From positions 1-21,873 of the IMG/VR virus record IMGVR_UViG_3300018416_004042: 21,873 nucleotides of DNA, one strand, 5' to 3'. Source of the stretch: a virus. A model generated the notes under the pieces. It did not search any database, was not told the DNA's origin, and saw only the letters and a program-made list of their open reading frames with translations. The position numbers and the translations under genes were made by a program. This document shows, one piece after another, positions 4,605 through 21,394 of this stretch; positions within the stretch are counted from its first letter, which is position 1, and each line of letters starts with the position of its first letter.

Positions 4605-4644
4605 ACTGTATCAAAAAAGATACAAAATGTTACAAATATTTTTT

Positions 4645-4706
4645 CCTTTAGAATCAATAACTTAGGGCTACCGCAGTTGTAAGTTATTGATTCTAAAGGC
4701 TTTTTT
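4645..4706 (+). terminator. Strong terminator with 20-bp stem after the polymerase gene
   Basis: Left arm 4645-4664 and right arm 4680-4699 pair perfectly over 20 bases around a 15-base loop, followed by C and six T. The pair T4658-A4686 is C-G in copy 2 (20024-20052), a compensatory change. It ends transcription from gene 43. Confidence 0.92.
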
Positions 4707-4721
4707 ATTTTCACAAAACAG

Positions 4722-4758
4722 TGTACATTCTCTCCAGATATGGTATAATAGTACCATA
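4722..4758 (+). promoter_or_regulatory. Promoter with operator-like palindrome, copy 1
   Basis: TGTACA (4722-4727), 16-base spacer, extended -10 TGGTATAAT with TATAAT at 4744-4749. A palindrome TATGGTA-N6-TACCATA (4739-4745 and 4752-4758) spans the -10 and the likely start site, a typical repressor position. It drives the accessory cluster starting at 4780. Confidence 0.8.
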
Positions 4759-4779
4759 AATTGATAAAGGAATGAAAAT

Positions 4780-4947
4780 ATGTGTAAAATTAAAGACATC
4801 TATACCACAGCTAAAGAGCTTCTTGAATTAGCTGCTGATGGTCAAATTGATTTTGACGATGCTGCTCAACAACTAATGGATCAATATCCAGTTTTAACAC
4901 GTAGCCAAGCGATTGGCTTTTTAGAAGATGCTTCTCAATTCGCCTAA
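4780..4947 (+). CDS. Small helical protein, first gene after cassette copy 1
   Basis: A 55-residue acidic protein beginning MCKIKDIYTTAKELLEL, with further helical segments (IDFDDAAQQLMDQYP, SRSQ-like turn, AIGFLEDASQFA). AAAGGA at 4766-4771, 8 bases before the ATG, is a good ribosome-binding site; the closer ATG at 4772 is in another frame and soon terminates. It is the first gene downstream of an apparently regulated promoter. I do not recognise a family. Confidence 0.7.
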   Translation: MCKIKDIYTTAKELLELAADGQIDFDDAAQQLMDQYPVLTRSQAIGFLEDASQFA

Positions 4948-4958
4948 GGAGATACAAT

Positions 4959-5453
4959 ATGTCTAAGTTGGTAATTTTTACTCAAGTTCGCGAAAACTAT
5001 GGTGCCCATAATTGGGACGGCAAAGGAGAATGCCCTCAGTACTGGAAGTTCAAAGGTGGTCACACATATGTGGTAGAGAACCTCACCAGCGAGCATATCA
5101 ACCGAATTGCACAGGGTGGCATCCCCACTCTCAGCGCGCTGGTTGAGTGCAAAAACGAGTCTTGGGAAGAGTATATCCTGGAATGGAATATTGTGGGAGA
5201 TTCAGACACTCCTTGGGAAGAGTGGGAAAGCCCTACTGAGTTCTACTGGGGTGGGGATCGTTGGCTCGCTCGTTGTGTCACTGAGAACGACGGTGACATG
5301 CGGCAGGGCATTGTGCGTAAACTGGAGCAGTGGATACCTCTAAAAGGAGGGGATCGTTCAGATTATTCGGCACGTTTTGACATGGCAGATGGTGAAAACA
5401 TTGCCTATTCAGATCTGTCGGATTGGTTTGCTGCAGAGGAGGCGGCGGCTTAA
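4959..5453 (+). CDS. Conserved phage protein of unknown function, GC-rich
   Basis: A 164-residue soluble protein, rich in Trp and acidic residues, with the recognisable opening TQVRENYGAHNWDGKGECP and a YWKFKGGHTYVVENL segment. Similar proteins occur in assorted environmental phages (recollection). It has a Shine-Dalgarno AAGGAGAT just upstream. Its base use is visibly more GC-rich (about half G+C by eye, with codons such as CTG, GCG, CGG, GGG) than the surrounding AT-rich genes, which suggests recent acquisition from a different genome. It lies directly behind the mobile-looking cassette. Function unknown. Confidence 0.8.
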   Translation: MSKLVIFTQVRENYGAHNWDGKGECPQYWKFKGGHTYVVENLTSEHINRIAQGGIPTLSALVECKNESWEEYILEWNIVGDSDTPWEEWESPTEFYWGGDRWLARCVTENDGDMRQGIVRKLEQWIPLKGGDRSDYSARFDMADGENIAYSDLSDWFAAEEAAA

Positions 5454-5750
5454 TTGACTAATGACTTTTTCAAACCTACTTTAGAGTGGATTAAAAATGA
5501 TTTTGAATCTAACCGTTTTCGCTTTTGCGTTGAGCTTTTGGCTTGGACTTTTAGCATCGGTTGCTCCATTACTATGGCGGCAACAGTCCCTAACCCGCCT
5601 CTTATTTGGATGTATCCTGTTTGGATCAGCGGGTGCTCTATGTACGCTTGGGCTGCTTATTCTCGCAAATCATTTGGCATGCTCGCTAATTACATGCTAT
5701 TAGTTGGTATTGATGTTGTTGGTTTAGTAAGGATGATTATAAGTGGCTAA
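5454..5750 (+). CDS. Small multi-pass membrane protein
   Basis: A 98-residue protein with three likely membrane segments: about residues 24-45 (FCVELLAWTFSIGCSITMAA), about 49-68 (LIWMYPVWISGCSMYAWAAY) and about 74-95 (FGMLANYMLLVGIDVVGLVRM). The start is TTG immediately after the stop of the preceding gene (TAATTG), with AGAGGAGG at 5435-5442 upstream, so it is translationally coupled. The pattern of a VPNPP loop between helices recurs in marine phage proteins of unknown role. The overlapping hydrophobic frame at 5497-5703 is a shadow. Confidence 0.75.
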   Translation: MTNDFFKPTLEWIKNDFESNRFRFCVELLAWTFSIGCSITMAATVPNPPLIWMYPVWISGCSMYAWAAYSRKSFGMLANYMLLVGIDVVGLVRMIISG

Positions 5751-5976
5751 TGTACATTTTCAACGTAAGATCGCATCAGATGAATTATCTGATACTTTGT
5801 ATTTTTCAACTGGCACATGTGCTGTTCGAACACGATCACCAAATAACTGGGTTTTAGCGACAAAAGAAATAAAGGTCGTAATTGTAAATACCCGTAATAT
5901 TACTGTGAATGGTGATAAGTGCAAGTCAATAGCAGAAGCTAAATTCGTTATACACGACTTAGCATTTGGAGATTAA
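5743..5976 (+). CDS. Hypothetical protein, GTG start
   Basis: A 77-residue, probably beta-rich protein (FQRKIASDELSDTLYFSTG, then WVLATKEIKVVIVNTRNI). The GTG start overlaps the previous stop by 8 bases and has AAGGA at 5729-5733, 9 bases upstream. Ordinary composition for this genome. No family recognised. Confidence 0.6.
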   Translation: MANVHFQRKIASDELSDTLYFSTGTCAVRTRSPNNWVLATKEIKVVIVNTRNITVNGDKCKSIAEAKFVIHDLAFGD

Positions 5977-5978
5977 CT

Positions 5979-6377
5979 ATGAAGATAAATCATGCACCAA
6001 TATTTGATGTAGAAAAAGCTATAGCTCATTATGAAAAGAAAGACAAAGTACAAATCAAATATGTCTGTACGACTGACCTTAGGGCTAGCGATACTCCTGT
6101 TGATGTTTTCTATAGGGAATCCCCTCATCCTGAGTTTGGCAATCGTTATTTTGGTCTTTACCGTAATTATAAAGGAGACACAATGATCACCAACGCGGAC
6201 ATTGTAGAGTCACTTGAGTTTGGTATGATTAAAGATAAAGATGGTAAATATTGGTATAGTTCAACTCACCACGATTGTTTATTCATTGATGGTAATATGA
6301 TTGATGGTGGACGAGAATATATTCGATCATCTGGTCCTGTAGAAGTTTTCAAAATAGTAAATGGCGAGTTTGTATGA
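5979..6377 (+). CDS. Conserved hypothetical protein
   Basis: A 132-residue soluble protein with many Tyr/His/Asp residues; segments FYRESPHPEFGNRYFGLYRN and YWYSSTHHDCLFIDGNMIDG look like a beta-rich core. It begins two bases after the previous stop and overlaps the following deaminase gene by 4 bases (ATGA), so it belongs to the same operon. A tie to the deaminase is possible by position only. Function unknown. Confidence 0.7.
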   Translation: MKINHAPIFDVEKAIAHYEKKDKVQIKYVCTTDLRASDTPVDVFYRESPHPEFGNRYFGLYRNYKGDTMITNADIVESLEFGMIKDKDGKYWYSSTHHDCLFIDGNMIDGGREYIRSSGPVEVFKIVNGEFV

Positions 6378-6685
6378 GCTTTGGTAGCTATAGTTTAACT
6401 GCTGAGATCTTTGACAAGCGTGGTCGAAGAATTTCAAGCGGTAAAAACTTTTATCAAAAGTCGCATCCCTTTCAAGCTAAGTGTGCTAAAAGGGCTGGAA
6501 AAGAAGATGCAATATATCTACATGCTGAGATTCATGCTATTGTGAAGTGTAAAAATTTGACAGATGCTTATAAGATCCGAGTAGAGAGATTTGATAAGCA
6601 TGGAAACCCAATGATAGCTAAACCATGTCCCATTTGTCAGATAGCTATTCAAGAAGCTGGAATTGAAATAGTGGAGCATACATAA
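6374..6685 (+). CDS. Compact zinc-dependent deaminase-fold protein
   Basis: A 103-residue protein carrying the two zinc motifs of the cytidine-deaminase superfamily: HAE at H50-E52 (within YLHAEIHAIVKC) and PCPIC at P84-C88. H50, C85 and C88 would bind zinc and E52 would be the proton shuttle. It is much shorter than dCMP deaminases such as the one at 11442 and belongs to a small phage-type deaminase group. Substrate is unknown: free nucleosides, nucleotides or a base in nucleic acid are all possible. It overlaps its upstream neighbour (ATGA) in an operon of accessory genes. Confidence 0.8.
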   Translation: MSFGSYSLTAEIFDKRGRRISSGKNFYQKSHPFQAKCAKRAGKEDAIYLHAEIHAIVKCKNLTDAYKIRVERFDKHGNPMIAKPCPICQIAIQEAGIEIVEHT

Positions 6686-6686
6686 T

Positions 6687-6923
6687 ATGACAATACCTAT
6701 TGAAAGATATTATTCTATTGCAAACGCTCAAGACTTTATGCTAGATCTAATGGATCCGAAGAAAACTCCACGAATACCTAAAGCTATTCGCAATCGAGCT
6801 GCTTTTTGCCTACGGCATTACCCAAGTGATTATTATTTGTATGAAATGGCAAAACAATGCCCAGACCTAATTCAACATCCGGAGATTGAAAGTGCTGAAC
6901 GAACTGGAGAAAAACAATGCTGA
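6687..6923 (+). CDS. BPSL0761-like small protein
   Basis: A 78-residue protein with the pattern RNRAAFCLRHYPSDYYLYEMAKQ, which resembles the BPSL0761 family (short proteins with an R-x-x-A-x-x-LLRHYPS core found in bacteria and phages). It starts one base after the deaminase stop and overlaps the next gene by 7 bases. Function unknown; the family link is from memory. Confidence 0.65.
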   Translation: MTIPIERYYSIANAQDFMLDLMDPKKTPRIPKAIRNRAAFCLRHYPSDYYLYEMAKQCPDLIQHPEIESAERTGEKQC

Positions 6924-7123
6924 TTGAAGTAGCTAAAACTGATGGATATAAGCTTATTGCGTCTAAGAATAGAGTGACAAGTACGAATGATTTATTTCAA
7001 ATCGTTCTTACACAAGAACTTATTAATGAAGATTCATCTTCAGAAGTTGTTTCTAAACACCAATATTTTATGACAGAACAAGAATTGAAAAATTTTATTG
7101 ATGTGCTATGTACAAAGTGTTGA
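6917..7123 (+). CDS. Hypothetical small protein
   Basis: A 68-residue protein (MLIEVAKTDGYKLIASKN, ending FIDVLCTKC). It shares a 7-base overlap with the previous gene and has a GGAGAAA ribosome-binding region inside it. The last codons contain the -35 element of the next promoter (TGTACA at 7109-7114). No family recognised. Confidence 0.6.
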   Translation: MLIEVAKTDGYKLIASKNRVTSTNDLFQIVLTQELINEDSSSEVVSKHQYFMTEQELKNFIDVLCTKC

Positions 7124-7137
7124 TAATGGTGTATAAT
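7109..7137 (+). promoter_or_regulatory. Promoter for the MazG/primase unit
   Basis: TGTACA (7109-7114), 17-base spacer, TATAAT (7132-7137), 27 bases before the next start codon. The -35 lies inside the preceding coding sequence. Confidence 0.7.
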
Positions 7138-7163
7138 ATTAAACATATTGTAAAGGAAAAATT

Positions 7164-7592
7164 ATGAGTAAAGATTGGTCTAATGATATTGCAGAAATGC
7201 ATAAAAAATTTGGTGTACATGAATGGTTTGATTCAAACCATGTAAATAAAAAACTTATGGATAAGTACCTTCGTTTTCGTCTAGCAATGTGTAAAGAAGA
7301 ACTAGACGAAACTTTATTAGCTATTGAAAACAAAGATCCTGAAGAAGTTGTTGATGGTCTAATTGACCTCTGTGTCTTTGCTATTGGTACCCTTGATGTT
7401 TTTGGTGTTGATGCAAACGAAGCTTGGGATCGAGTTCATGATGCAAACATGGCAAAATCTCCAGGTGTTAAAGAAGGTCGTCCAAACCCATTTGGTCTAC
7501 CAGACTTAATCAAACCAGAAGGTTGGTCAGCGCCGAATCATAGCGGCAATCATGGACAATTATCAGATGCATTATTCACTGACTCTATTTAA
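7164..7592 (+). CDS. MazG-like all-alpha NTP pyrophosphohydrolase
   Basis: A 142-residue enzyme of the all-alpha NTP-PPase superfamily, which hydrolyses (d)NTPs to the monophosphate and pyrophosphate. The metal-binding motif is visible as EELDE at residues 45-49 followed by EEVVDGLIDL with E61, D64 and D68. The C-terminal GLPDLIKPEGWSAPN pattern is typical of phage members. AAAGGA about 8 bases upstream sets the start. In a phage that makes hydroxymethyl-dCMP, this enzyme is a candidate for removing dCTP or dUTP (the job of gp56 in T4), but specificity cannot be read from sequence. It overlaps the next gene by 41 bases. Confidence 0.85.
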   Translation: MSKDWSNDIAEMHKKFGVHEWFDSNHVNKKLMDKYLRFRLAMCKEELDETLLAIENKDPEEVVDGLIDLCVFAIGTLDVFGVDANEAWDRVHDANMAKSPGVKEGRPNPFGLPDLIKPEGWSAPNHSGNHGQLSDALFTDSI

Positions 7593-8496
7593 TAATATAT
7601 TTGATAATAAGACACACAAACGTCAAGATTTTTCGGATTGGGAACACTTTGAAAATCTTCTTTATGATCTCTCATTAGTTCCTAAGAAAGATAAAAAGTC
7701 AGCTAGTCTTATTTCGCCAGCAACGTATATGCCTGATACTACACGTGCAAATGATAATGTAGTGAATTGGGCAGGTTGGGCTGCGATTGATGTTGACAAC
7801 CATCAGTTTCATGGTAATTTGGAAAAAGAATTATATGATAGATACGGTAACTATTATTATGTTTGTTACTCTACTGCTAGCAGCACACTTGAGTATCCAA
7901 AGTTTCGGCTTGTCTTCCCGCTTAAAACAGAGGTTAGATCGAACGAAATTCGAAAATTCTGGTATTCTCTTAACGAAGAACTTGGATGCATCGGAGACAA
8001 GCAAACTAAAGACTTATCTAGAATGTATTATATTCCAGCAACGTATACTGGTGCTAATAACTTTATTTTTACTAATAGCATTGGTTCTTTTATTGATCCC
8101 TATGCTTTAATTGATAAGCATCCATTGCCTGAAAAGAAGGGTAGTACTTTTTTTGATCGACTACCTGACACAATGCAAAAGATGATTATTCAACACCGCA
8201 AAGATCAGATGCAAAATCGATCTATTACTTGGACATCATATCGTGATTGTCCGTTCGTCAACAAAAAACTTATTTCAGAATATAAGTTAATTAGTGATAC
8301 TGGTTGGTATCATAAAATGTATCAAATTATGGTTTCAATTGCAGGTAACGCAGTAAAACGTGAGTATCCTATCACAGTAGATGAAATTACTCAACTGTGT
8401 AAAGAACTAGATCTTGAAACTGGTAATTGGTATAAAAATCGTCCATTAAATAAAGAGGCTGAACGAGCTATTGAGTTCGTATATTCGAATTTATGA
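7552..8496 (+). CDS. Putative archaeo-eukaryotic-type primase (PrimPol-like) protein
   Basis: A 314-residue protein. WAAIDVDNH (D80, D82) resembles the DxD motif of archaeo-eukaryotic primases. STASSTLEYPKFRLVFPL (107-124) matches the second conserved block, in which related Rep/primase proteins have S-x-x-S-x-x-x-x-P-x-x-R-x-x-x-P. DLSRMYYIPATY (154-165) matches the third (D-x-S-R-x-x-x-x-P). The C-terminal half (about 235-314) is helical. This could be the phage primase, since no DnaG-type gp61 gene adjoins gp41 here. It lacks an adjoining helicase domain. The start overlaps the MazG-like gene by 41 bases without a clear Shine-Dalgarno; ATG 7567 is an alternative. Family call by motif only. 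Confidence 0.55.
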   Translation: MDNYQMHYSLTLFNNIFDNKTHKRQDFSDWEHFENLLYDLSLVPKKDKKSASLISPATYMPDTTRANDNVVNWAGWAAIDVDNHQFHGNLEKELYDRYGNYYYVCYSTASSTLEYPKFRLVFPLKTEVRSNEIRKFWYSLNEELGCIGDKQTKDLSRMYYIPATYTGANNFIFTNSIGSFIDPYALIDKHPLPEKKGSTFFDRLPDTMQKMIIQHRKDQMQNRSITWTSYRDCPFVNKKLISEYKLISDTGWYHKMYQIMVSIAGNAVKREYPITVDEITQLCKELDLETGNWYKNRPLNKEAERAIEFVYSNL

Positions 8497-8927
8497 AATT
8501 TAATGCTATTATAGATATTGATCGTGAAAAATTAAAATTACGAGCCCTAGATGAAGCGAGGTTAATTTATGCAAAAGATTCAACACGTAAAAATCGGTCG
8601 TTGGAAGAAATTTTACAGACGTGTATGTATGGACATGCAGCTGAAATATATCTTATGGAGTGCGGATTTACTGATGATCCGCGCCCATATAAAGATCTTT
8701 TGGAGAAAGACGGTACGCCGATTGAAGTCAAAGTTACCGAAGGTAAATATTATGTCCCGTTTGTATTAGCCCGAGCTGAGCGTGCTGCTAGAGAGGAGTG
8801 GCGAGATTATCCAAATAAGCTTTATGTCTTTATTGCAGATCGCAATACATTAGACTATGAGTTATATGGAATCTATACTTGGAACGGTGAAAATTTTTGT
8901 TTACATTCTAAAAGTTATGGTGTATAA
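8493..8927 (+). CDS. Putative PD-(D/E)XK nuclease-fold protein
   Basis: A 144-residue protein whose conserved residues fit the PD-(D/E)XK layout: a helix with E51 (YGHAAEIYLMECGF), D68 in RPYKDLLEKDG, and the E-x-K element at IEVKV (E78, K80), followed by a helix (LARAERAAREEW) and a strand (KLYVFIADR). Such proteins cut or repair DNA. The gene overlaps the primase-like gene by 4 bases (ATGA), so the two are probably co-translated. No specific family recognised; structural prediction would settle it. Confidence 0.6.
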   Translation: MKFNAIIDIDREKLKLRALDEARLIYAKDSTRKNRSLEEILQTCMYGHAAEIYLMECGFTDDPRPYKDLLEKDGTPIEVKVTEGKYYVPFVLARAERAAREEWRDYPNKLYVFIADRNTLDYELYGIYTWNGENFCLHSKSYGV

Positions 8928-8928
8928 T
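8900..8928 (+). promoter_or_regulatory. Promoter for the dATP/dGTPase-like unit
   Basis: TTTACA (8900-8905), 17-base spacer, TATAAT (8923-8928). The -10 overlaps the stop codon of the nuclease-like gene; the next start is 27 bases downstream. Confidence 0.65.
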
Positions 8929-8954
8929 ATACATATTAATTACGGAACTATATT

Positions 8955-9272
8955 ATGAAATACGATCAAAACAAACCACCACTCGGACTAATTCCACCTG
9001 AAGCACTTTTTGAAGTTGCAAAGGTATTTTCTTTTGGTGCTGAAAAATACGGTGAAAATAATTGGCGTGCAGATGGTGCATCTACATCATGGACTCGAAC
9101 TTACTCTTCTATTCAACGACACCTCAATGCTTGGATGATGGGTGAAGATAAAGATCCAGAATCTGGTGAAAACCATCTTGCTCATGCAACAACTCAACTC
9201 ATTATTCTAATGGTACACCAAATGGATCATCCAAATAATGATGACAGATGGAATACAGGTAAGAAAAAATGA
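8955..9272 (+). CDS. dATP/dGTP diphosphohydrolase-like protein (MazG-like N-terminal family)
   Basis: A 105-residue protein with the highly characteristic opening KYDQNKPPLGLIPPEAL, then FSFGAEKYGENNWR, SSIQRHLNAWMMGEDKDPES and GENHLAHATTQLIIL. This is the family formerly annotated as DUF5664, now linked to dATP/dGTP diphosphohydrolases related to MazZ. The expected activity is (d)NTP to dNMP plus pyrophosphate, with the acidic residues of the GEDKDPESGENHLAH block binding metal. It would tune the dNTP pool during infection. It overlaps the next micro-ORF by 4 bases. Confidence 0.85.
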   Translation: MKYDQNKPPLGLIPPEALFEVAKVFSFGAEKYGENNWRADGASTSWTRTYSSIQRHLNAWMMGEDKDPESGENHLAHATTQLIILMVHQMDHPNNDDRWNTGKKK

Positions 9273-9997: not shown

Positions 9998-10681
9998 ATG
10001 CAAACATATAAAGTACAAGATATTCGAGATCATTTTATCAATGAATTAAAAGCTGAACGCTTTACTGTAGATAAAACTGGTCAAAAGACTATTGAAATTC
10101 TTGGTGCATCATTTATTGCTGATGAATCGGCAATCTTTGGTACTCCAGTTGATGAGTATATTGAAAAAGAATTTGCGTGGTATCGATCAATGTCTACAAA
10201 TATTAAAGACATTTATGGACCTGATCGTAATCCACCACTGGCTTGGCGGTATGCAGCAAATATGCATGGTGAAATTAATTCAAACTATGGACTACTCATT
10301 TGGTCAGAAAAGTATTTCAATCAATTTGATCGTGTTGTACAAGAATTAGATAAAAATCCCGATGGCCGTAGAGCTACCATGATTTATAATCGTCCTTCTA
10401 TTTGGGCTGAATATAATGAAAATGGTAAGTCTGATTTTATTTGTACAAATGCTGTAAGTTATTATATTCGTGATAAGAAACTACATGCAGTAGTTCAAAT
10501 GCGATCTAATGATGTTGTCTTTGGTTATAAGAATGATTATGCATGGCAACATGAAGTTATGATTCTACTAATTGATCGTTATCTTGATCTAAATATTTTT
10601 TCTGATCTTGAAATAGGTGATATTTATTGGCAAGTTCAAAATCTCCATGTATATGAACGACACTTTGATTTAGTAAAATAA
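9998..10681 (+). CDS. 42: Deoxycytidylate (dCMP) hydroxymethylase, gp42-like
   Basis: Converts dCMP plus methylenetetrahydrofolate to 5-hydroxymethyl-dCMP; the 227-residue product aligns along its length with T4 gp42 (246). Shared blocks include DKTGQKTIEILGASFIADE, GEINSNYGLLIWSE, NPDGRRATMIYNRPS and QMRSNDVVFGYKNDYAWQ. The catalytic Cys is C149 in FICTNAV. D180 in YKND stands where thymidylate synthases have the dUMP-selecting Asn, the switch that gives dCMP specificity in gp42 (T4 C148 and D179). This is the strongest sign that the phage replaces cytosine with 5-hydroxymethylcytosine. The start gives MQTYKVQDIRDHF, aligning with the T4 N-terminal region. It follows a terminator and leads the modification genes. 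Confidence 0.95.
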   Translation: MQTYKVQDIRDHFINELKAERFTVDKTGQKTIEILGASFIADESAIFGTPVDEYIEKEFAWYRSMSTNIKDIYGPDRNPPLAWRYAANMHGEINSNYGLLIWSEKYFNQFDRVVQELDKNPDGRRATMIYNRPSIWAEYNENGKSDFICTNAVSYYIRDKKLHAVVQMRSNDVVFGYKNDYAWQHEVMILLIDRYLDLNIFSDLEIGDIYWQVQNLHVYERHFDLVK

Positions 10682-10682
10682 T

Positions 10683-11438
10683 ATGAAAGTCTATATTGGT
10701 CCTTATAAAAATTGGTTTGGTCCTTATCAACTAGCTGAAAAGTTGATGTTCTGGATACCAAAGGAAAAAGATGAGTATGGTTTTGAGCAGCCTGCTGATT
10801 GTGTACACCACTTTGGCGAGTGGCTTGCTCACGGTAGTATAGAGCCTGAACCAGAAGTAGGTGACATTCAAAAATGGGGAGATCGTCCACACACTTGGTT
10901 GTATAAGTTTCTAAGTTGGATTGACAGCAAGAAGAAGCAAAAGATTGAAATACATATTGATCGCTGGGACACTTGGAGTATGGATAATACCCTTGCTCTT
11001 ATTGTTCTTCCTATGCTCAAGCAGTTACGCGATAGTAAACATGGGTATTCTTATGTTGATATTGAAGATGTACCTGAAAATCTAAGACTTATTGATCACC
11101 TACTTGACAACGATGATGAATATGGTTCACAACTTAGTTTGTTTAATAACAAAGTTTGTAATCCAGAAGATATTTCAATTGGTGAAGATCAATGGAACTG
11201 GGTACTTAACGAAATGATTTTTGCGTTTGAATGCAAAGTTAATGATGAATGGGAAGATCAGTTTGAGTCTGGTGAATGGGATATGGCTTGGAAGAAACTG
11301 GAAGGTGGAGTTAGTCAACTCATAGAAGGACCTAATCATACCAAAGTGTATGACTGGGAAGCACGTAAAGCATATGAAGCAAGAATTCAAAATGGTTTTA
11401 GACTCTTTGGAAAGTACTATCAAAATCTTTGGGATTAA
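10683..11438 (+). CDS. Conserved phage protein of unknown function
   Basis: A 251-residue acidic, Trp-rich soluble protein. The opening MKVYIGPYKNWFGPYQLAE, the block IHIDRWDTWSMDNTLALIVL, the motif YVDIEDVPENLR and the WNWVLNEMIFAFE block recur in many environmental tailed phages (recollection). It starts two bases after the hydroxymethylase stop and is followed closely by dCMP deaminase, so by position it belongs with nucleotide or DNA-modification functions. No catalytic motif is recognised. Confidence 0.85.
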   Translation: MKVYIGPYKNWFGPYQLAEKLMFWIPKEKDEYGFEQPADCVHHFGEWLAHGSIEPEPEVGDIQKWGDRPHTWLYKFLSWIDSKKKQKIEIHIDRWDTWSMDNTLALIVLPMLKQLRDSKHGYSYVDIEDVPENLRLIDHLLDNDDEYGSQLSLFNNKVCNPEDISIGEDQWNWVLNEMIFAFECKVNDEWEDQFESGEWDMAWKKLEGGVSQLIEGPNHTKVYDWEARKAYEARIQNGFRLFGKYYQNLWD

Positions 11439-11441
11439 TAT

Positions 11442-11876
11442 ATGACATGGGATGAAAGATATCTAGATTTAGCTGAAAATGTTTCATCGTGGTCAAAAGA
11501 CCCATCTCGTAAAATTGGTGCTGTTGCTGTTGGTAACAAAGGACAAATATTATCTCAAGGCTACAATGGGTTTCCACGTGGCATTAGTGATAATGTAGAA
11601 CGATATAACGATAAAGAAACTAAGTATCGATATGTTGTTCACGCAGAAATGAATGTCATATATAATGCTACATACAATGGAATATCTCTTGATGGTGCTA
11701 CATTATATGTTACTGGTTTACCTGTTTGTTCTGAATGCGCAAAAGGTATTATTCAAACCGGTGTGAAACGAGTAGTAATGCGTGCAACTGATGTTCCAGA
11801 AAAATGGTTTATTTCATTTGCAACTACTGCTAAAATGTTTAATGAAGCAAATATTGAATGGGAATTATTAGAATGA
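11442..11876 (+). CDS. cd: dCMP deaminase
   Basis: A 144-residue zinc enzyme converting dCMP to dUMP, the precursor for ThyX. Motifs: DPSRKIGAVAV near the N-terminus, the HAE zinc/proton-shuttle motif at H67-E69 (VVHAEMNVIYNA), and the cysteine pair C96/C99 in PVCSECAKGI. It is shorter than T4 Cd (193 residues), closer to typical bacterial and marine phage forms. It draws on the same dCMP pool as the hydroxymethylase two genes upstream, so the pair partitions dCMP between dTMP and hydroxymethyl-dCMP. Its stop overlaps the next start (ATGA). Confidence 0.93.
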   Translation: MTWDERYLDLAENVSSWSKDPSRKIGAVAVGNKGQILSQGYNGFPRGISDNVERYNDKETKYRYVVHAEMNVIYNATYNGISLDGATLYVTGLPVCSECAKGIIQTGVKRVVMRATDVPEKWFISFATTAKMFNEANIEWELLE

Positions 11877-13240
11877 AAATTGCTTTTGTGTTTGGTAAAG
11901 GCCTAGATGGCTGTGGAGTAGAAAAGGTTGGATATGAATGGCAACGCTACGATCCACAAAACATTCACGTGTACTCATTGGCTGAAAGGTCTTTTGTGCG
12001 ATCTGGCGGTCATATTAAAAACTCTATTTCCTTTAAGCCAAATGAAATTCCTACAATCGCTAAAAAGCTAAATGATGAATATGACATTGTGGTACTCAAT
12101 TCATATCCATCTCCCATGCACGCGCGCGAGTCAGTAGTTTCTTTTTACAAAGACCTAGTACTTAAGCTTGAGAAGCCAATTGTCGTGTCAATGATGCATG
12201 AAATCAAGCGAGCAAACTTTGACCGTATTCCAATGCACTTAGCGATTGCTAATGCGTCAGACTTCGTGTTCAACTTTTCTACAAAGACAGATTATTCCGT
12301 TGATGTATCAAAAGTTCTTACGAATAAAAAGATCGGTGAACGCATCGCACGCATGAAGCTACCTTTCACTGTATCTGACTACGATAAATATGTGATTCCA
12401 TTCGAGCAAAAAGATAAGCGCATCATTTATACTGGTCGATGGACTACAATGAAAGATCCAGCACGTTTGATTGACCTGTATCCATTGCGTCAAGATTTGA
12501 ACATGGCCATTCATGGAATTGAGCGTTCAATTGGTGCTAAATTCGATATCATTGATAGATCAAATTACAAAGCTAAGTTTGAAAAGTACGATGACAGTAG
12601 TTCAATCATTCAATCCTTTGGCCCTTATGAATACCAAGATGGAATGAAGCTATTAAGCTCGGCGATGTTTGGTTATTCTGGTTTCCGTCTACCAAGAGAA
12701 CCACACAACTATGGTGATCGCTTTGAATACACACAAATGGAAATGATGGCCGTTGGATCTGTAGCTATGTTTGATAAACACTATGGCGAAAATAACATCG
12801 ATGACAATGGAAAGCGGTTCATTGATAATCCACAAATTGCGGTATGGTCAGATCGTGAAGACCTACAAGATACTATGGACCAATTATTAAATATCGCAAC
12901 TAATAAGGTTCTTTATGAACAATATGTTGAAGCAAGTAGAGCCTTCGTTAGTCAAGAAACTGATGCGTCAATCGTTATTCCAAAAATGTTAGAGCACATC
13001 ACTAAGTTTGGTAAGCAAACTGATAAGTGGACACATAACCAATTGCTTGAAAAGTGTTATGGCCAAGATATTTCTCAAGAGTTCGAAGCTATGATGAACG
13101 AATACACGCCTGCTCTTGGTTGTAAAGAAGTAGAAGAAAAATCATTATCTTATTTTGTAAATAAAAAACGAATAGTTATGAAGAGCTTAAAAGCAAAGGC
13201 TAAAGCTACTTCAACTGGATCCTTGGAGGAATTCTTTTGA
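11873..13240 (+). CDS. DNA alpha-glycosyltransferase, T4 AGT-like (acts on 5-hydroxymethylcytosine DNA)
   Basis: A 455-residue GT-B-type glycosyltransferase. The N-terminus MKIAFVFGKGLDGCGVEK aligns with T4 alpha-glucosyltransferase MRICIFMARGLEGCGVTK. Other matching blocks are IVVLNSYPSP (T4 ILIINSVPAT), GRWTTMKDP (T4 GRTTTWKG), and FEYTQMEMMAVGSVAMFDK (T4 LEYTHLELGACGTIPVFWK). T4 AGT moves glucose from UDP-glucose to hydroxymethylcytosine in DNA; the donor here may differ. ATG 11873 is chosen over 11858 because it gives the ATGA overlap and the T4-like N-terminus. The protein is about 55 residues longer than T4 AGT, mainly a C-terminal extension ending GSLEEFF, which resembles the polymerase's clamp-binding tail. 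GGAGG near its end serves the next gene. Confidence 0.88.
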   Translation: MKIAFVFGKGLDGCGVEKVGYEWQRYDPQNIHVYSLAERSFVRSGGHIKNSISFKPNEIPTIAKKLNDEYDIVVLNSYPSPMHARESVVSFYKDLVLKLEKPIVVSMMHEIKRANFDRIPMHLAIANASDFVFNFSTKTDYSVDVSKVLTNKKIGERIARMKLPFTVSDYDKYVIPFEQKDKRIIYTGRWTTMKDPARLIDLYPLRQDLNMAIHGIERSIGAKFDIIDRSNYKAKFEKYDDSSSIIQSFGPYEYQDGMKLLSSAMFGYSGFRLPREPHNYGDRFEYTQMEMMAVGSVAMFDKHYGENNIDDNGKRFIDNPQIAVWSDREDLQDTMDQLLNIATNKVLYEQYVEASRAFVSQETDASIVIPKMLEHITKFGKQTDKWTHNQLLEKCYGQDISQEFEAMMNEYTPALGCKEVEEKSLSYFVNKKRIVMKSLKAKAKATSTGSLEEFF

Positions 13241-13596
13241 AACGTATAGTATTTGATTTAGATGACACCATCTGCTTTCCTAATCATAGCGGCAAAGATA
13301 CGTATATGAAGTATGCTATGGCTAAACCAAATACACCAGTTATTGATGGAATGCTTAAGCTAAAAGAACAGGGTTACTATATCATTATTCATTCTGCACG
13401 TAGGATGTTAACGCATAATGGTGACTTGCAAAAAATTCTTGCTGATGTACAACATATAACTATTCATTGGTTACATGATTACGGTGTACCGTACGATGAA
13501 TTGGTCTTTGGTAAACCATACGCTGACACTTATTATGTAGATGATAAAGCAATGACAATTGAAGGATTTTTAGAATGGGCAAATTCAACGTCGTAA
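13237..13596 (+). CDS. HAD-family phosphatase of the capsule/sugar-nucleotide type
   Basis: A 119-residue HAD hydrolase. Motif I is FDLDDTI (D8, D10), motif II is HSAR (after YYIII), and the end FGKPYADTYYVDDKA supplies the motif III/IV Lys and acidic residues. Short HAD proteins of this pattern (FGKP.AD.Y.DDKA) sit in capsule and sugar-nucleotide clusters. Expected role: dephosphorylating a sugar phosphate in donor synthesis. The start is TTG, overlapping the glycosyltransferase stop, with GGAGG 7 bases upstream. It overlaps the following nucleotidyltransferase gene by 22 bases. Confidence 0.85.
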   Translation: MKRIVFDLDDTICFPNHSGKDTYMKYAMAKPNTPVIDGMLKLKEQGYYIIIHSARRMLTHNGDLQKILADVQHITIHWLHDYGVPYDELVFGKPYADTYYVDDKAMTIEGFLEWANSTS

Positions 13597-15062
13597 TTCC
13601 AGCTGCCGGAGCAGCAACTCGTCTTCGTCCGCTTTCTTCTAATACATCAAAGATCATGGTTCGCGTAAATGGCAAACCATGTCTTGATTATATTATCGAA
13701 GGATTAGGAAAAGATGTAAATGAGATCATCATTGTTGATGGTCAATTCAATGACATTAGAGAATACTGTAAAATCCGTCATCCTAATATTAAGTTTGTAA
13801 AGCAACCATCTCTTGATGGTCCACGCGATGCTATCAAATATGGTATGAATGAAATCATAGATGATAAATTGCCTATTGTAGTATGGTTGGGTGATGCAAT
13901 TATTCTAGAAAAGAATATGCCATTGGGCACAAACTTCTTATTAACAAAATCAGTTGATAATCATTCTGCTTGGTGTATGTGGGATGGAGAACAATATTAT
14001 AATAAGCCAAAGAGTCTTATTGAAGAAGCAGTAGCTCTTGTTGGGTTATATTCGTTTGCAAATGGTAAAGCTGCAAAGTTGGCTTTTAACAATACGGATG
14101 GATATGACATCTCAGAAGCATTGGTTGAATACTCAAAATGTGGTCCTTATCATTTTGATAACATCGTAACTGAAGAATGGTATGATATCGGAGATCTTCC
14201 GAATTACTATAAGACAAGTGCCGCGCTATTGAACCTAAAAGCTCGTGCGTTCAACCATATTGAATATAATTTTGAACTTGGCACTCTTCGTAAAAGCCCG
14301 GATTATCACGATGAACATTCGGTAAAAACTCTAATGGCAGAAAAGATGTGGTATGATAGTCTTACGCCAGAGCAATCTATGTTTACGCCTAGGATTCTAC
14401 CTTCTAAGACTCATTTGGTTATGTCTTATGAGTCTGGTACTTTGTTATCTGATTTGATGCTCTATGATAACCTATCAGATAGTAGTTGGGATTACATCAT
14501 AGATCGTATCTTTAAGATCAAGCTAAAGTATTTCAACTATGAATCAAACGATATGGAATTCATTCAAAAGTTTTCTTCTTTGTCTGAATCTATGTGGATC
14601 AATAAATCTAAAGAACGATTGAATGACCTTGAATTTACAAATAGCCAAACACAAAAATTGGTTAATATCTCAACCAAAGCATGGAGAAATACTAAACCAA
14701 TCTTTGGTATGCATGGAGACTTGCATTTTGGAAATGTACTATATAATCAGCAGACCGATCAATTCAAGTTGATCGATCCAAGAGGAAACTATGGTGGTAG
14801 ACTTGGAAATGAAGGTGATAACCTTTATGATTGGGCTAAACTAGCGCATGACTTATATCATGGTTATAATGCGATGGTTTCAAATGTACAACAAAATCTA
14901 TATGTAAAAGATTTGTTTGTGCGAAAGCTTAAAGAACATAATCTACCAGTTGACGTTATTTTAGAAAGTGGCCTATTGCTTATTGCGACATGCATTGGCC
15001 TACACAAGGACGACGTCCATAGACAATTAAGAATGAAAACATACGTGGAAAGTCAATTATGA
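13575..15062 (+). CDS. Sugar nucleotidyltransferase fused to an APH/choline-kinase-like kinase
   Basis: A 495-residue two-domain enzyme. Residues 1-220 are a nucleotidyltransferase: IPAAGAATRLRPLS (the G-x-x-T-R-L-x-P loop, about 12-19), K26, WLGDAI with D107, and EWYDIGDLPNYY near 201-212 as in glucose-1-phosphate thymidylyltransferase-like proteins. Residues about 240-495 are a phosphotransferase: MHGDLHFGNVLY with D382 and N387 (Brenner motif) and LIDPRG with D401 (metal ligand), then NLYDWAKLAHDL as in capsule-linked kinases. Together they could phosphorylate and nucleotidylate a sugar or small alcohol to give an activated donor. GAAGGA 8 bases upstream supports the start. The neighbours suggest the donor feeds the adjacent DNA glycosyltransferase. 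Substrate cannot be deduced. Confidence 0.85.
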   Translation: MGKFNVVIPAAGAATRLRPLSSNTSKIMVRVNGKPCLDYIIEGLGKDVNEIIIVDGQFNDIREYCKIRHPNIKFVKQPSLDGPRDAIKYGMNEIIDDKLPIVVWLGDAIILEKNMPLGTNFLLTKSVDNHSAWCMWDGEQYYNKPKSLIEEAVALVGLYSFANGKAAKLAFNNTDGYDISEALVEYSKCGPYHFDNIVTEEWYDIGDLPNYYKTSAALLNLKARAFNHIEYNFELGTLRKSPDYHDEHSVKTLMAEKMWYDSLTPEQSMFTPRILPSKTHLVMSYESGTLLSDLMLYDNLSDSSWDYIIDRIFKIKLKYFNYESNDMEFIQKFSSLSESMWINKSKERLNDLEFTNSQTQKLVNISTKAWRNTKPIFGMHGDLHFGNVLYNQQTDQFKLIDPRGNYGGRLGNEGDNLYDWAKLAHDLYHGYNAMVSNVQQNLYVKDLFVRKLKEHNLPVDVILESGLLLIATCIGLHKDDVHRQLRMKTYVESQL

Positions 15063-16252
15063 AATATGCTAGTATTGTTCCATTGATCGGTGGAGAAACC
15101 ATCGCGATGGAAAAAGTCTTTGGTAAAAAACCGGAATATATTTTAAGCTATGAAGCCTTCTCAAACAACGATCAACATATTGTTAACCATTATAAGAACA
15201 CAGTTCCCTACCATGTTCTTAACCCTTCTGACAGCATCAGTAACTTTGATCGTGTTGACGTTGTCAACACTGTTTGTCCTTGTGCTGGGCTTAGTTCTCT
15301 TTCTCCATCAGCAAGTTCTAATAATTCTGCGAATGATTGGATGTTTATTACTTCTGAGTTTGTGTTGGGTTCTTTATCCCCTAGAGTATTTTGGGGTGAG
15401 AACGCACCAAGACTTGCTTCAAAGATGGGCGAACCGATTGTCAAAAGGTTAAGAAAGATTGGTGAGAAGTATGGTTATACATTTAGCATCTTTAAGACTA
15501 AATCAGTTCTACATGGATTGAGTCAAGTAAGAGATCGTACGTTTTATTTCTTTTGGAAAGGAGATGTTGTACCAGTATTTCCATACATTGAACGCCCTAA
15601 CGAAACTATTGAAGATACCATTCGAAGTGCTAAGGCCAAGGATGGAGATCCAATGGGAGTATTGACTAATACAAAGAAACCATCTGATAACCCATTCTAT
15701 CGTTATGTTCTTCAAGTAATGGAAGGTGGAATTAGCCATGTTGATTTTGCTAAGAAAATTGATAAGACCACAAATCCATTAGACTACATTGAGAATGCCG
15801 GCGTCTCATATCTTGATGTCGCAAAGTGGATGCGTGAAAATAACTATGAGCGAGAAGCTCGTAAGTGCGAACGCATGCATAAGAAACTAAAGGATGGTGG
15901 AAACATCATGCGTAAGACTACTGAGATTCCAAAGGGAATTATTGGAGCCTTTGTTGGTCATATGCCAACTTCTCTTACTCATCCTGATGAAGATCGTTAT
16001 ATTAGCATTCGTGAAGCATTGAGCATTATGAAGCTACCAGAAGACTTTCAACTACAAGGCGGTCTTCGTAACCTAAACCATATTTGCCAAAACGTACCAG
16101 TTACTACAGCAGCAGACATGGCTCAATACGTAAAAGATTACCTTGAAGGAAATTTAGATACATTACGTACAGATTTTCTTATACAAGACAATAAAACAAA
16201 ATCAATAAATGACTATTCTAATGGTGTACAACTTGATGAGTTTATGGTATAA
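15059..16252 (+). CDS. C5-cytosine DNA methyltransferase homolog
   Basis: A 397-residue protein with C5-MTase motifs in order: a divergent motif I (VPLIGGETIAME, 7-18, instead of DLFxGxGG), motif IV CPCAGLSSLSP with the Pro-Cys nucleophile C75, motif VI FWGENAP (E114, N115), motif VIII GLSQVRDR (Q156, R158, R160), a target-recognition region about 170-300, then motif IX/X (ISIREALSIMKLPEDF, QNVPVTTAADMAQYV). The catalytic residues are intact while the cofactor loop is unusual. It starts in ATGA overlap with the nucleotidyltransferase-kinase gene. In a phage with hydroxymethylated C5 ordinary methylation would be blocked, so it may act on unmodified DNA or have another C5 chemistry. Its C-terminus QLDEFMV is encoded across the next promoter. 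Confidence 0.85.
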   Translation: MKYASIVPLIGGETIAMEKVFGKKPEYILSYEAFSNNDQHIVNHYKNTVPYHVLNPSDSISNFDRVDVVNTVCPCAGLSSLSPSASSNNSANDWMFITSEFVLGSLSPRVFWGENAPRLASKMGEPIVKRLRKIGEKYGYTFSIFKTKSVLHGLSQVRDRTFYFFWKGDVVPVFPYIERPNETIEDTIRSAKAKDGDPMGVLTNTKKPSDNPFYRYVLQVMEGGISHVDFAKKIDKTTNPLDYIENAGVSYLDVAKWMRENNYEREARKCERMHKKLKDGGNIMRKTTEIPKGIIGAFVGHMPTSLTHPDEDRYISIREALSIMKLPEDFQLQGGLRNLNHICQNVPVTTAADMAQYVKDYLEGNLDTLRTDFLIQDNKTKSINDYSNGVQLDEFMV

Positions 16253-19968: not shown

Positions 19969-20010
19969 ATTTGTATCAAAAAAGATACAAAATGTTACAA
20001 TTCTTTTTTT

Positions 20011-20072
20011 CCTTTAGAATCAACAACTTATGGATTAAGGGTTTCTAAGTTGTTGATTCTAAAGGCTTTTTT
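20011..20072 (+). terminator. Strong terminator with 20-bp stem, copy 2
   Basis: Arms 20011-20030 and 20046-20065 pair fully around a 15-base loop, followed by C and six T. C20024-G20052 replaces the T-A pair of copy 1. It ends the uvsX-41-thyX operon. Confidence 0.92.
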
Positions 20073-20097
20073 ATTTTCATTTATTTTCACAAAACAG

Positions 20098-20134
20098 TGT
20101 ACATTCTCTGCAGCTATGGTATAATGGTACCATA
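20098..20134 (+). promoter_or_regulatory. Promoter with operator-like palindrome, copy 2
   Basis: TGTACA (20098-20103), 16-base spacer, TATAAT (20120-20125). The palindrome TATGGTA-N6-TACCATA (20115-20121 and 20128-20134) again spans the -10; only its centre differs from copy 1. Drives the 20157 accessory cluster. Confidence 0.8.
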
Positions 20135-20156
20135 AATTGATAAACAGGAGCAGAAA

Positions 20157-20495
20157 ATGAAAGCAACAGTATACCAGATGGAAGATCAAGTAGCAGTTAA
20201 AGTGGCAATCATTGATTGTGGAAAATTCCTTAGCATTGACGAAATGCTTGAGTATGCTTATCATCGCACTCAGAACATTCATGGTTCTTGGTCAAAAGGT
20301 GAGTTTTTCTCTGATGGTAGTGTCAATCAAGATTTTCACAAAGACATCGAAGTTGTTAAAGACCTCGAAGTTTACGATGGTGTTGAATATGGCCATCGCT
20401 CAAGCATGATGCGTGATCGTATCGAGATTGATGGTACAATGTACGAAGTTAGAGCGTTTGGTTTTGAAGAATACACTGACGCAGTTGCGGCTTAA
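20157..20495 (+). CDS. Conserved hypothetical protein, first gene after cassette copy 2
   Basis: A 112-residue acidic protein; the segment YAYHRTQNIHGSWSKGEFFSDG and the later YGHRSSMMRDRIEIDGTMYE with RAFGFEEYTD look like a conserved beta-rich domain that I recall from other marine phages without a function. CAGGAG lies about 7 bases upstream. As the first gene behind an apparently regulated early-type promoter it is probably expressed early and strongly. Confidence 0.75.
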   Translation: MKATVYQMEDQVAVKVAIIDCGKFLSIDEMLEYAYHRTQNIHGSWSKGEFFSDGSVNQDFHKDIEVVKDLEVYDGVEYGHRSSMMRDRIEIDGTMYEVRAFGFEEYTDAVAA

Positions 20496-20506
20496 GGAGA
20501 AATATT

Positions 20507-20674
20507 ATGATTCGATTAGTTGTTGGGTTTATGATTGTGTTTGGCGCCACTGGTGGCATTGAAACTGGAGATGCTACTCTTCTGCAAGGTATGATTTCCG
20601 CTGCAATTGGTCTTGGACTTGCGTATTGGCCAATTGCAGATGGTACAGTTAATCGCATTTCAGAGGATGCCTAA
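20507..20674 (+). CDS. Small membrane protein
   Basis: A 55-residue protein with two hydrophobic segments (MIRLVVGFMIVFGATGG and LLQGMISAAIGLGLAYWPIA) and a short polar tail. AAGGAGAAA upstream is a good ribosome-binding site. It ends in TAATG overlap with the next gene. No family recognised. Confidence 0.65.
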   Translation: MIRLVVGFMIVFGATGGIETGDATLLQGMISAAIGLGLAYWPIADGTVNRISEDA

Positions 20675-20877
20675 TGCTTCAGTTGGAATGGATAGAAGTA
20701 ACATTTCTACTTTTGTTCTTTTTAGCTGGTATGATTTTTAATTATAGAGCTGGAAGAGATGCTGGGGTAGCATATGGAATTGACTCTACTTTAACGTTTC
20801 TAGAAAAACAAAAAATTATTATTATTGATCACAATACTGGTGATTTCAGACCATACATTGAAGAAGGTGAAAAATGA
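20674..20877 (+). CDS. Small single-pass membrane protein
   Basis: A 67-residue protein with one N-terminal membrane helix (VTFLLLFFLAGMIFNY) and a soluble tail containing AGRDAGVAYGIDSTLTFLEK, a pattern of Gly-rich turn plus helix. Start and stop both overlap neighbours, showing tight operon packing. Function unknown. Confidence 0.65.
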   Translation: MLQLEWIEVTFLLLFFLAGMIFNYRAGRDAGVAYGIDSTLTFLEKQKIIIIDHNTGDFRPYIEEGEK

Positions 20878-21167
20878 TGAATCGCACAAAAAGTTATATC
20901 GCGTCATATGATACACAAAGCGTCAATGACATGCAAATGCTTGCCGAAGCTCGTAAACTTGTTTCTGGCATGAATCGTCTTTTGAAAGCTGATGGTCATC
21001 AGCAACAGTATCGCTTGGTAGTTCGTGGCCGTAAGCCAATACAAAAGTCTATCATTACTAATTGGCGCACTGGCAAAACGTCAGTAACCGGTTATGACTG
21101 GGCTGGTAACATAGTTGGTGGTTTGGCTAATGCGACTAAACTTGATGCTTACATTTATCGTCGATGA
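20874..21167 (+). CDS. Hypothetical basic protein
   Basis: A 97-residue basic protein: a helical half (DMQMLAEARKLVSGMNRLLK) followed by a basic strand-rich half (YRLVVRGRKPIQKS, then RTGKTSVTGYDWAGN). The basic character would allow nucleic-acid contact, but no motif is recognised. Overlaps its neighbours by 4 bases on each side. Confidence 0.65.
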   Translation: MMNRTKSYIASYDTQSVNDMQMLAEARKLVSGMNRLLKADGHQQQYRLVVRGRKPIQKSIITNWRTGKTSVTGYDWAGNIVGGLANATKLDAYIYRR

Positions 21168-21394
21168 GATCAACACCAGAATCGATTCTAGAAAAAGCTA
21201 AAAAAAGATTGGCAAAGGGAGAAGATCCTGACACAGTTCTAGAAGAATTTAGTACACTATATACTAAGTCTCTATTACATCCAATTCTTATAGCAATAAA
21301 GCAACAACCTGAAATTGATTACGAAGATTCTAGAAAAAGATACGATGAACAAATGGCAAGCAGAAAAAAACCATCTGATCATGTAAAAGAATAA
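21164..21394 (+). CDS. Small helical protein with GluTR-dimerisation-like motif
   Basis: A 76-residue helical protein. KRLAKGEDPDTVLEEFSTLYTKSLLHPIL resembles (split here: RLAKGEDPDTVLEEF and LYTKSLLHP) the C-terminal dimerisation helices of glutamyl-tRNA reductase, a short module also found alone in phages. No catalytic part is present, so a heme role is not implied. It is the last protein gene before the tRNA cluster. Confidence 0.65.
   Translation: MRSTPESILEKAKKRLAKGEDPDTVLEEFSTLYTKSLLHPILIAIKQQPEIDYEDSRKRYDEQMASRKKPSDHVKE

Follow-up and report, generated by a model that had tools for sequence, protein, structure and literature searches.

Single phage promoters assisted by IHF, such as Pe of phage Mu, are already known. 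Another early phage promoter, lambda pL, is stimulated by IHF. For Mu Pe, deletion of the IHF site lowers transcription, according to work cited in PMC3820752. A different kind of element, the PeSL cassettes of T4-type phages, combines a stem-loop with an early-type promoter and lies in intergenic plastic regions, as related in PMC4503421 (citing Arbiol 2010 and Comeau 2014). In bacteria, the tssD2 promoters of Vibrio fluvialis have an IHF site, TAACTTATTGATT, whose binding and function have been proven by EMSA and mutation (PMC5963220).

In this work, we describe an element present twice in a 21,873-bp stretch of viral DNA (hereafter, the window). The phage is T4-type, with a gp43 54.6% identical to that of phage C48C1 and at most 48.6% identical to those of cyanophages. 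Each copy is probably a promoter module, in which a helically phased IHF-type site would activate a sigma70-type promoter resembling early ones. As in Mu Pe and lambda pL, a site with the IHF consensus lies 5' of a sigma70 early promoter, here a predicted one. The element differs from both in that several such promoters occur per genome, with the site mirrored in the group of the window and set at fixed distances of 19, 30 or 40 bp from the -35 box, and in that the arrangement is spread over many uncultivated phages, including T4-type ones. With PeSL cassettes, as far as these are outlined in PMC4503421, it shares a sigma70-type promoter with a stem-loop, an intergenic, plastic setting, the occurrence in several copies and a T4-type carrier; by the same account, it departs from them in its long, AT-rich stem of conserved IHF-like sequence, in the lack of a U-tract conserved throughout the family, and in having phasing as its conserved feature. 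The module would thus work like an IHF-assisted early promoter, while looking like a PeSL. A literature search found no repeated, helically phased architecture over hundreds of phage contigs, and searches on the motif letters and on IHF with T4-like early promoters returned nothing relevant.

Two copies of the element in the window

The copies occupy positions 4607-4779 and 19972-20156, with the following features.

4607..4624, + strand: small hairpin TGTATC-AAAAAA-GATACA, 5' of copy 1, inside the repeated stretch
4639..4644, + strand: T6 tract outside the distal arm, at the place expected for the A/T tract of IHF sites
4652..4664, + strand: predicted distal IHF-consensus site AATCAATAACTTA, left stem arm of copy 1
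4665..4679, no strand: 15-nt spacer/loop of copy 1, sequence unconserved
4680..4692, - strand: predicted promoter-proximal IHF-consensus site, right stem arm of copy 1, read on the + strand as TAAGTTATTGATT
4701..4706, + strand: T6 of copy 1, counted as the proximal site's A/T tract and also as U-tract of a possible terminator
4722..4749, + strand: sigma70-type promoter TGTACA-16-TATAAT, 30 bp past the end of the proximal TTGAT core
4780..7123, + strand: cargo site 1, eight small ORFs, one deaminase-like (6374-6685), filling the gp43-mazG gap
19972..19989, + strand: small hairpin of copy 2
20004-20010: T-tract outside the distal arm, copy 2
20018..20030, + strand: predicted distal IHF-consensus site AATCAACAACTTA, left stem arm of copy 2
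20031..20045, no strand: 15-nt spacer/loop of copy 2, unrelated to that of copy 1
20046..20058, - strand: predicted promoter-proximal IHF-consensus site of copy 2, read on the + strand as TAAGTTGTTGATT
20067-20072: T-tract outside the proximal arm, copy 2
20070..20089, + strand: 10-bp tandem duplication, TTTATTTTCA twice, one extra helical turn between site and promoter
20098..20125, + strand: sigma70-type promoter TGTACA-16-TATAAT, 40 bp past the end of the proximal TTGAT core
20157..21394, + strand: following gp41/thyX, five small ORFs forming the cargo of site 2

The two stretches are 84% identical overall in pairwise comparison. Each contains a hairpin (4645-4699 and 20011-20065) with a perfect 20-bp stem and a 15-nt loop, and these two are the only perfect hairpins with a stem longer than 10 bp in the window. 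The stems differ solely by a compensated pair, T4658-A4686 versus C20024-G20052, and the loops have no clear similarity to each other. The duplication and the stem change had been recognized in an earlier, sequence-only reading, which described near-identical duplicated cassettes with unrelated loops and a single compensated stem difference; RNA folding, which it proposed as a check, indeed gave strong structures, of -38.3 kcal/mol for copy 1 (z about -9) and -36.7 kcal/mol for copy 2 (z about -8). An assembly error in a single record is excluded, because both loci recur, at more than 99.7% identity, in four more contigs of the same population (L005-L008). An Rfam search matched the three tRNAs and nothing else.

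Copy 2 contains an exact tandem duplication of the 10-bp sequence TTTATTTTCA (20070-20079 and 20080-20089), which copy 1 lacks and which is responsible for most of the 12-bp difference in length between the copies; the sequence-only reading had overlooked it. Being located between hairpin and promoter, it shifts the latter by one helical turn. Four other strong promoters on the + strand, TGTACA-17-TATAAT at 2024, 7109, 9569 and 16225, have no phased IHF-consensus site; their spacer is 17 bp long, as against 16 bp in the two promoters of the modules. Boxes of the type TGTATCA/TGTTACA, found 5' of the distal arm (4607-4635 and 19972-19999 in the window), accompany 28 of 69 oriented elements of the family, about 2 being expected.

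Similarity of the stem arms to IHF sites

The four stem arms of the window each conform to the IHF consensus WATCAANNNNTTR (consensus from PMC5963220), with AATCAA(T/C)AACTTA as their conserved core. The compensated stem pair falls on an N of this consensus. T6 or T7 tracts are found about 8-15 nt outside all four arms, on the WATCAA side, and it is at this outer placement that strong IHF sites carry an A/T tract. The same composition recurs throughout the family in flanks not imposed by the search: in 141 distinct pairs, A is found beside ATCAA in 94% and A/T at -15..-11 in 86-97%, while single sites, among the matches listed, feature W at +1 in 94% and A/T at +11..+17 in 80-94%. Both the core consensus and the A/T tract of an IHF site are thus present, and TAAGTTATTGATT is identical at 12 of 13 positions to the proven V. 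fluvialis site. The promoters differ: that of tssD2 is sigma54-dependent and served by the activator VasH (PMC5963220), while those described here are sigma70-like, with no known activator.

We infer that the arms are IHF-type binding sites. No IHF/HU gene (PF00216) was found in 43 carrier records, mostly fragments, whereas a control search was positive in 9 of 14 genomes; the binder, if IHF, is therefore likely to be the host's. The same half-site, as AAAAAGTCGTTTAAAATCAATAACTT(A/G), was also noted once each in the Xanthomonas phages CP1 (L462, 1346) and phiXacJX1 (L463, 1058), near an HNH gene and, in phiXacJX1, also near the gene of the terminase small subunit; there it may have a part in DNA packaging as an IHF site.

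Helical phasing of the sites with sigma70 promoters

A promoter scoring at least 10/12 and directed away from one arm is found in 92 of 135 elements; with a score of at least 11 required, 70 remain, while inward-directed promoters number 3 and shuffled flanks give 5. When promoters were taken as the starting point, 86 sites were found 5' of 375 promoters, against an expectation of 1.9. The -35 box lies 19-20, 29-30, 39-40 or 51 bp past the proximal TTGAT, with hardly any values in between; measured from the promoter-proximal arm, the groups are 19-21, 29-31 and 39-41 bp. The window copies, at 30 and 40 bp, are offset by exactly the 10-bp duplication, one turn. With each of 41 first-gene families counted once, R(10.5) is 0.895 and 10.5 bp is the best of the periods tested (p about 5e-15; all phasing p-values given here assume independent elements, an assumption that related phages violate, so that the figures per family are to be preferred). 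Phasing is found in both classes of -35 box, with R=0.98 for TGTAC* and R=0.86 for TTGAC*.

The relation holds without any hairpin. Collection-wide scans were run for TAAG-N3-TTGAT followed, at any distance from 15 to 45, by a consensus promoter; their figures include matching sites from loci fetched earlier. In the TTGACA class, at least 104 distinct sites gave R=0.736 with a best period of 10.5 bp (p about 4e-25), and in the TGTACA class at least 76 gave R=0.717 with a best period of 11.3 (p about 1e-17). Among the matches listed, newly fetched loci, taken once per first-gene family (n=91), gave R=0.66, while control TTGAT sequences outside an IHF context, 5' of the same promoters, were unphased (n=113, R=0.057, p=0.69). 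The partner arm is absent, again among the matches listed, in 96 of 104 TTGACA and 49 of 76 TGTACA cases, and these sites are phased too. A further control motif, TTGATNNNTAAG, looked phased but coincides with the element's own flank TTGATttaTAAGG, and was discarded as invalid. In 369 bacterial genomes the promoter pattern produced one match; since the amounts of bacterial and phage DNA are too unequal for a comparison of rates, the argument rests on phasing.

What is constrained is the helical spacing between site and promoter, and this persists even where there is no hairpin. As in IHF-dependent sigma70 promoters, the site keeps to a fixed helical face, with a period of about 10.5 bp and with controls in support; such a conserved face marks a protein on duplex DNA, not an RNA hairpin. 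Because most phased sites lack a partner arm, the core unit consists of a sigma70 promoter and one IHF-like site in phase with it; the second, inverted site, and with it the hairpin, is an elaboration.

Phasing alone, on the other hand, names no protein, and a transcription activator other than IHF, encoded by host or phage, might bind the phased half-site. The IHF consensus is looser than the preferred half-site, which has C before TTA as searched and an N3 that is mostly TAA, TGA or CAA, and looser, too, than TAAG N3 TTGAT, as used in the scans. However, the core, the place of the A/T tract and the 12/13 match to the Vibrio site all fit IHF, as do six phased sites of general IHF consensus found, among the matches listed, outside the selected half-site class; moreover, the gap between arms ranges from 7 to 22, more than a rigid dimer would tolerate. 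We consider a different activator unlikely, and retain IHF as the preferred reading.

Covariation of the arms and the role of the hairpin

At the free N3 positions, the two arms are concordant in 76 of 141 pairs, versus about 30 expected by permutation and a maximum of 45 in 5000 shuffles. Since the arms covary, the palindrome is maintained, either by selection or by templated correction, which is known to act on palindromes in phages. This observation weighs against IHF, a single site of which does not require a palindrome. It also upholds, in part, the claim of the sequence-only reading that structure, and not just sequence, is conserved; the data do not, however, support RNA structure as the point of the element, because a U-run is infrequent, mismatches carry no RNA-strand bias and phasing persists without hairpins. 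Specifically, a U-run of at least 5 separates hairpin and -35 box in only 21 of 69 promoter-oriented elements, and discordant arm pairs, read on the promoter strand, are wobble-only in 7 cases and A-C-only in 7. The interpretation of the copies as terminator-promoter cassettes accounts for just a part of the observations: both window copies have a U-run and may act as terminators, but most of the family has no such run. Nor do the loops appear to act as distinct RNA tags, as had been supposed: they are unrelated in nearly every element of the family, which fits a free DNA spacer better.

These data also bear on the possibility that the element is a PeSL-type cassette, that is, an intrinsic terminator and a promoter serving as recombination homology to shuttle cargo, its conservation being due to homogenisation or lateral spread. 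One RB49 terminator-promoter does have the same order, stem-loop first and promoter next, and the U-runs of the window copies, the variable cargo and the hypervariability of site 1 would all agree with such a cassette. Yet the scarcity of U-runs in the family and the unbiased mismatches are at odds with it, as is helical phasing, found even in hairpin-free sites; furthermore, RB49 stems are GC-rich, and the terminator-promoter stem GGGCTATCC/GGATAGCCC contains no motif pair and does not resemble the element. We regard this explanation as quite improbable, and an IHF-type promoter module as preferable to it.

Distribution of the family

Scanned for the inverted pair, viral contigs yielded 112 stretches; related pairs with unrelated loops are present in more than 100 uncultivated phage contigs, mostly between genes and with different genes behind them. 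Gaps between the arms are mainly of 9-10, 13-15 and 19 bp, and of 85 distinct elements, 80 are not located in any ORF of at least 100 aa. Exact copies may be numerous within a record: nine in one of 158 kb, five in one of 54 kb and four in one of 46 kb. A reversed control pattern was found in none of 38 records, and in a motif-blind scan the motif hairpins ranked among the strongest of their carriers, with none in four non-carriers. In the nine-copy record (L349-L356), stems extend over up to 30 positions, preceded by A-runs and followed by T-runs, like bidirectional terminators.

T4-type relatives chosen by protein alone contained 5 exact pairs in 2 of 78 gp43 loci and none in 77 gp41 loci, an everted control giving 0; as most such relatives are without the pair, the latter is lineage-specific. 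The inverted pair is absent from RB49, T4, KVP40, P-SSM2, C48C1 and four others, and BLAST searches with the arm consensus and 15 representative modules retrieved no isolate phage carrying the module. Copies can spread within a genome, because the two found 13.9 kb apart in one contig (L044, 1151 and 15073) share identical 14-nt loops, unlike those of the window.

In bacterial genomes, the same pair is mainly found inside MITE-like palindromes, mostly without strong promoters. Many such palindromes occur in MAGs of Bryobacterales, Methylobacter, Parabeggiatoa and Thiomicrorhabdus (L194-L257), with an inner pair ATCAAYAACTTA-N18-TAAGTTRTTGAT and ends which differ. The occurrence of this pair, 18 bp apart, in several bacterial groups is what could suggest that a palindromic, MITE-like mobile element was inserted twice in the window. 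The bacterial palindromes, however, differ from the phage elements in flanks and gap and are mostly devoid of a promoter, while the elements of phages retain orthologous positions behind gp41/thyX, with outer flanks varying between lineages. Such an origin is highly improbable.

A possible mechanism

The IHF-assisted promoter module is supported by the consensus match, the A/T tract, phasing, recurrence and variable cargo. The mechanism that we infer, comprising IHF binding, bending, activation, early timing and termination, would be as follows. The proximal site, 30 or 40 bp 5' of a strong, early-type sigma70 promoter, would be bound by IHF of the host or by another protein that prefers the same sequence. 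The resulting bend in the DNA could bring RNA polymerase into contact, on one helix face, with DNA further upstream or with IHF itself. This contact might raise or license transcription of the accessory genes behind the promoter; alternatively, the outcome could be anti-silencing on AT-rich DNA. The mirror site, 15 bp further 5', would strengthen the bend or double the occupancy; it also creates the palindrome seen as a hairpin. In this phage, the hairpin and its 3' U-run may additionally, as a secondary role, end transcripts from the upstream gene, namely gp43 and the gene before 19972.

More tentatively, many uncultivated phage lineages may share one grammar, an IHF-type half-site located whole turns 5' of a sigma70 promoter and sometimes palindromic, which would enlist the host's bending protein, possibly against silencing of AT-rich DNA; we would not give this extension quite as good a chance of being right as of being wrong. 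It could also be workable on base-modified DNA, since IHF recognizes the shape of DNA through the minor groove and hence tolerates base modification. If true, a host nucleoid protein would be built into the expression programme of these phages, a common and so far unrecorded way of using a host protein to switch on genes; the grammar would also offer a testable rule for locating promoters in uncultivated phages, and a reason for the recurrent palindromes with unrelated loops in their genomes.

Genes located downstream of the elements

Behind 67 promoter-oriented elements, 39 families of first genes were found. In relatives, the element persists after gp41/thyX with a varying first gene behind it (a112, F5, F10 or F11 types), a97 recurring further downstream. 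The gp43-mazG gap (4605-7163 in the window) is hypervariable, spanning 2563 bp in the window and from 54 to about 4200 bp in relatives, and is a hot spot for cargo. The same stem-loop and early-type promoter thus recurs in relatives with different cargo, which the sequence-only reading had proposed to look for, and its view of the accessory clusters as exchangeable cargo is plausible. The PeSL-like exchange it envisaged agrees with the variable cargo and the hypervariable site 1, but no recombination junction was seen.

Elsewhere in the window, the regions 9998-16252 and 7164-9272 contain genes of the modified-DNA type (ThyA-like, dCMP deaminase, MazG, HAD, NTP transferase and C5 methylase), together with a dATP/dGTP diphosphohydrolase N-domain (PF18909) and T4 alpha-glucosyltransferase-like, AGT-like (PF11440) sequences, a set which suggests modified DNA. 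ThyX is present alongside the ThyA-like gene, and both types of thymidylate synthase are therefore found in the window.
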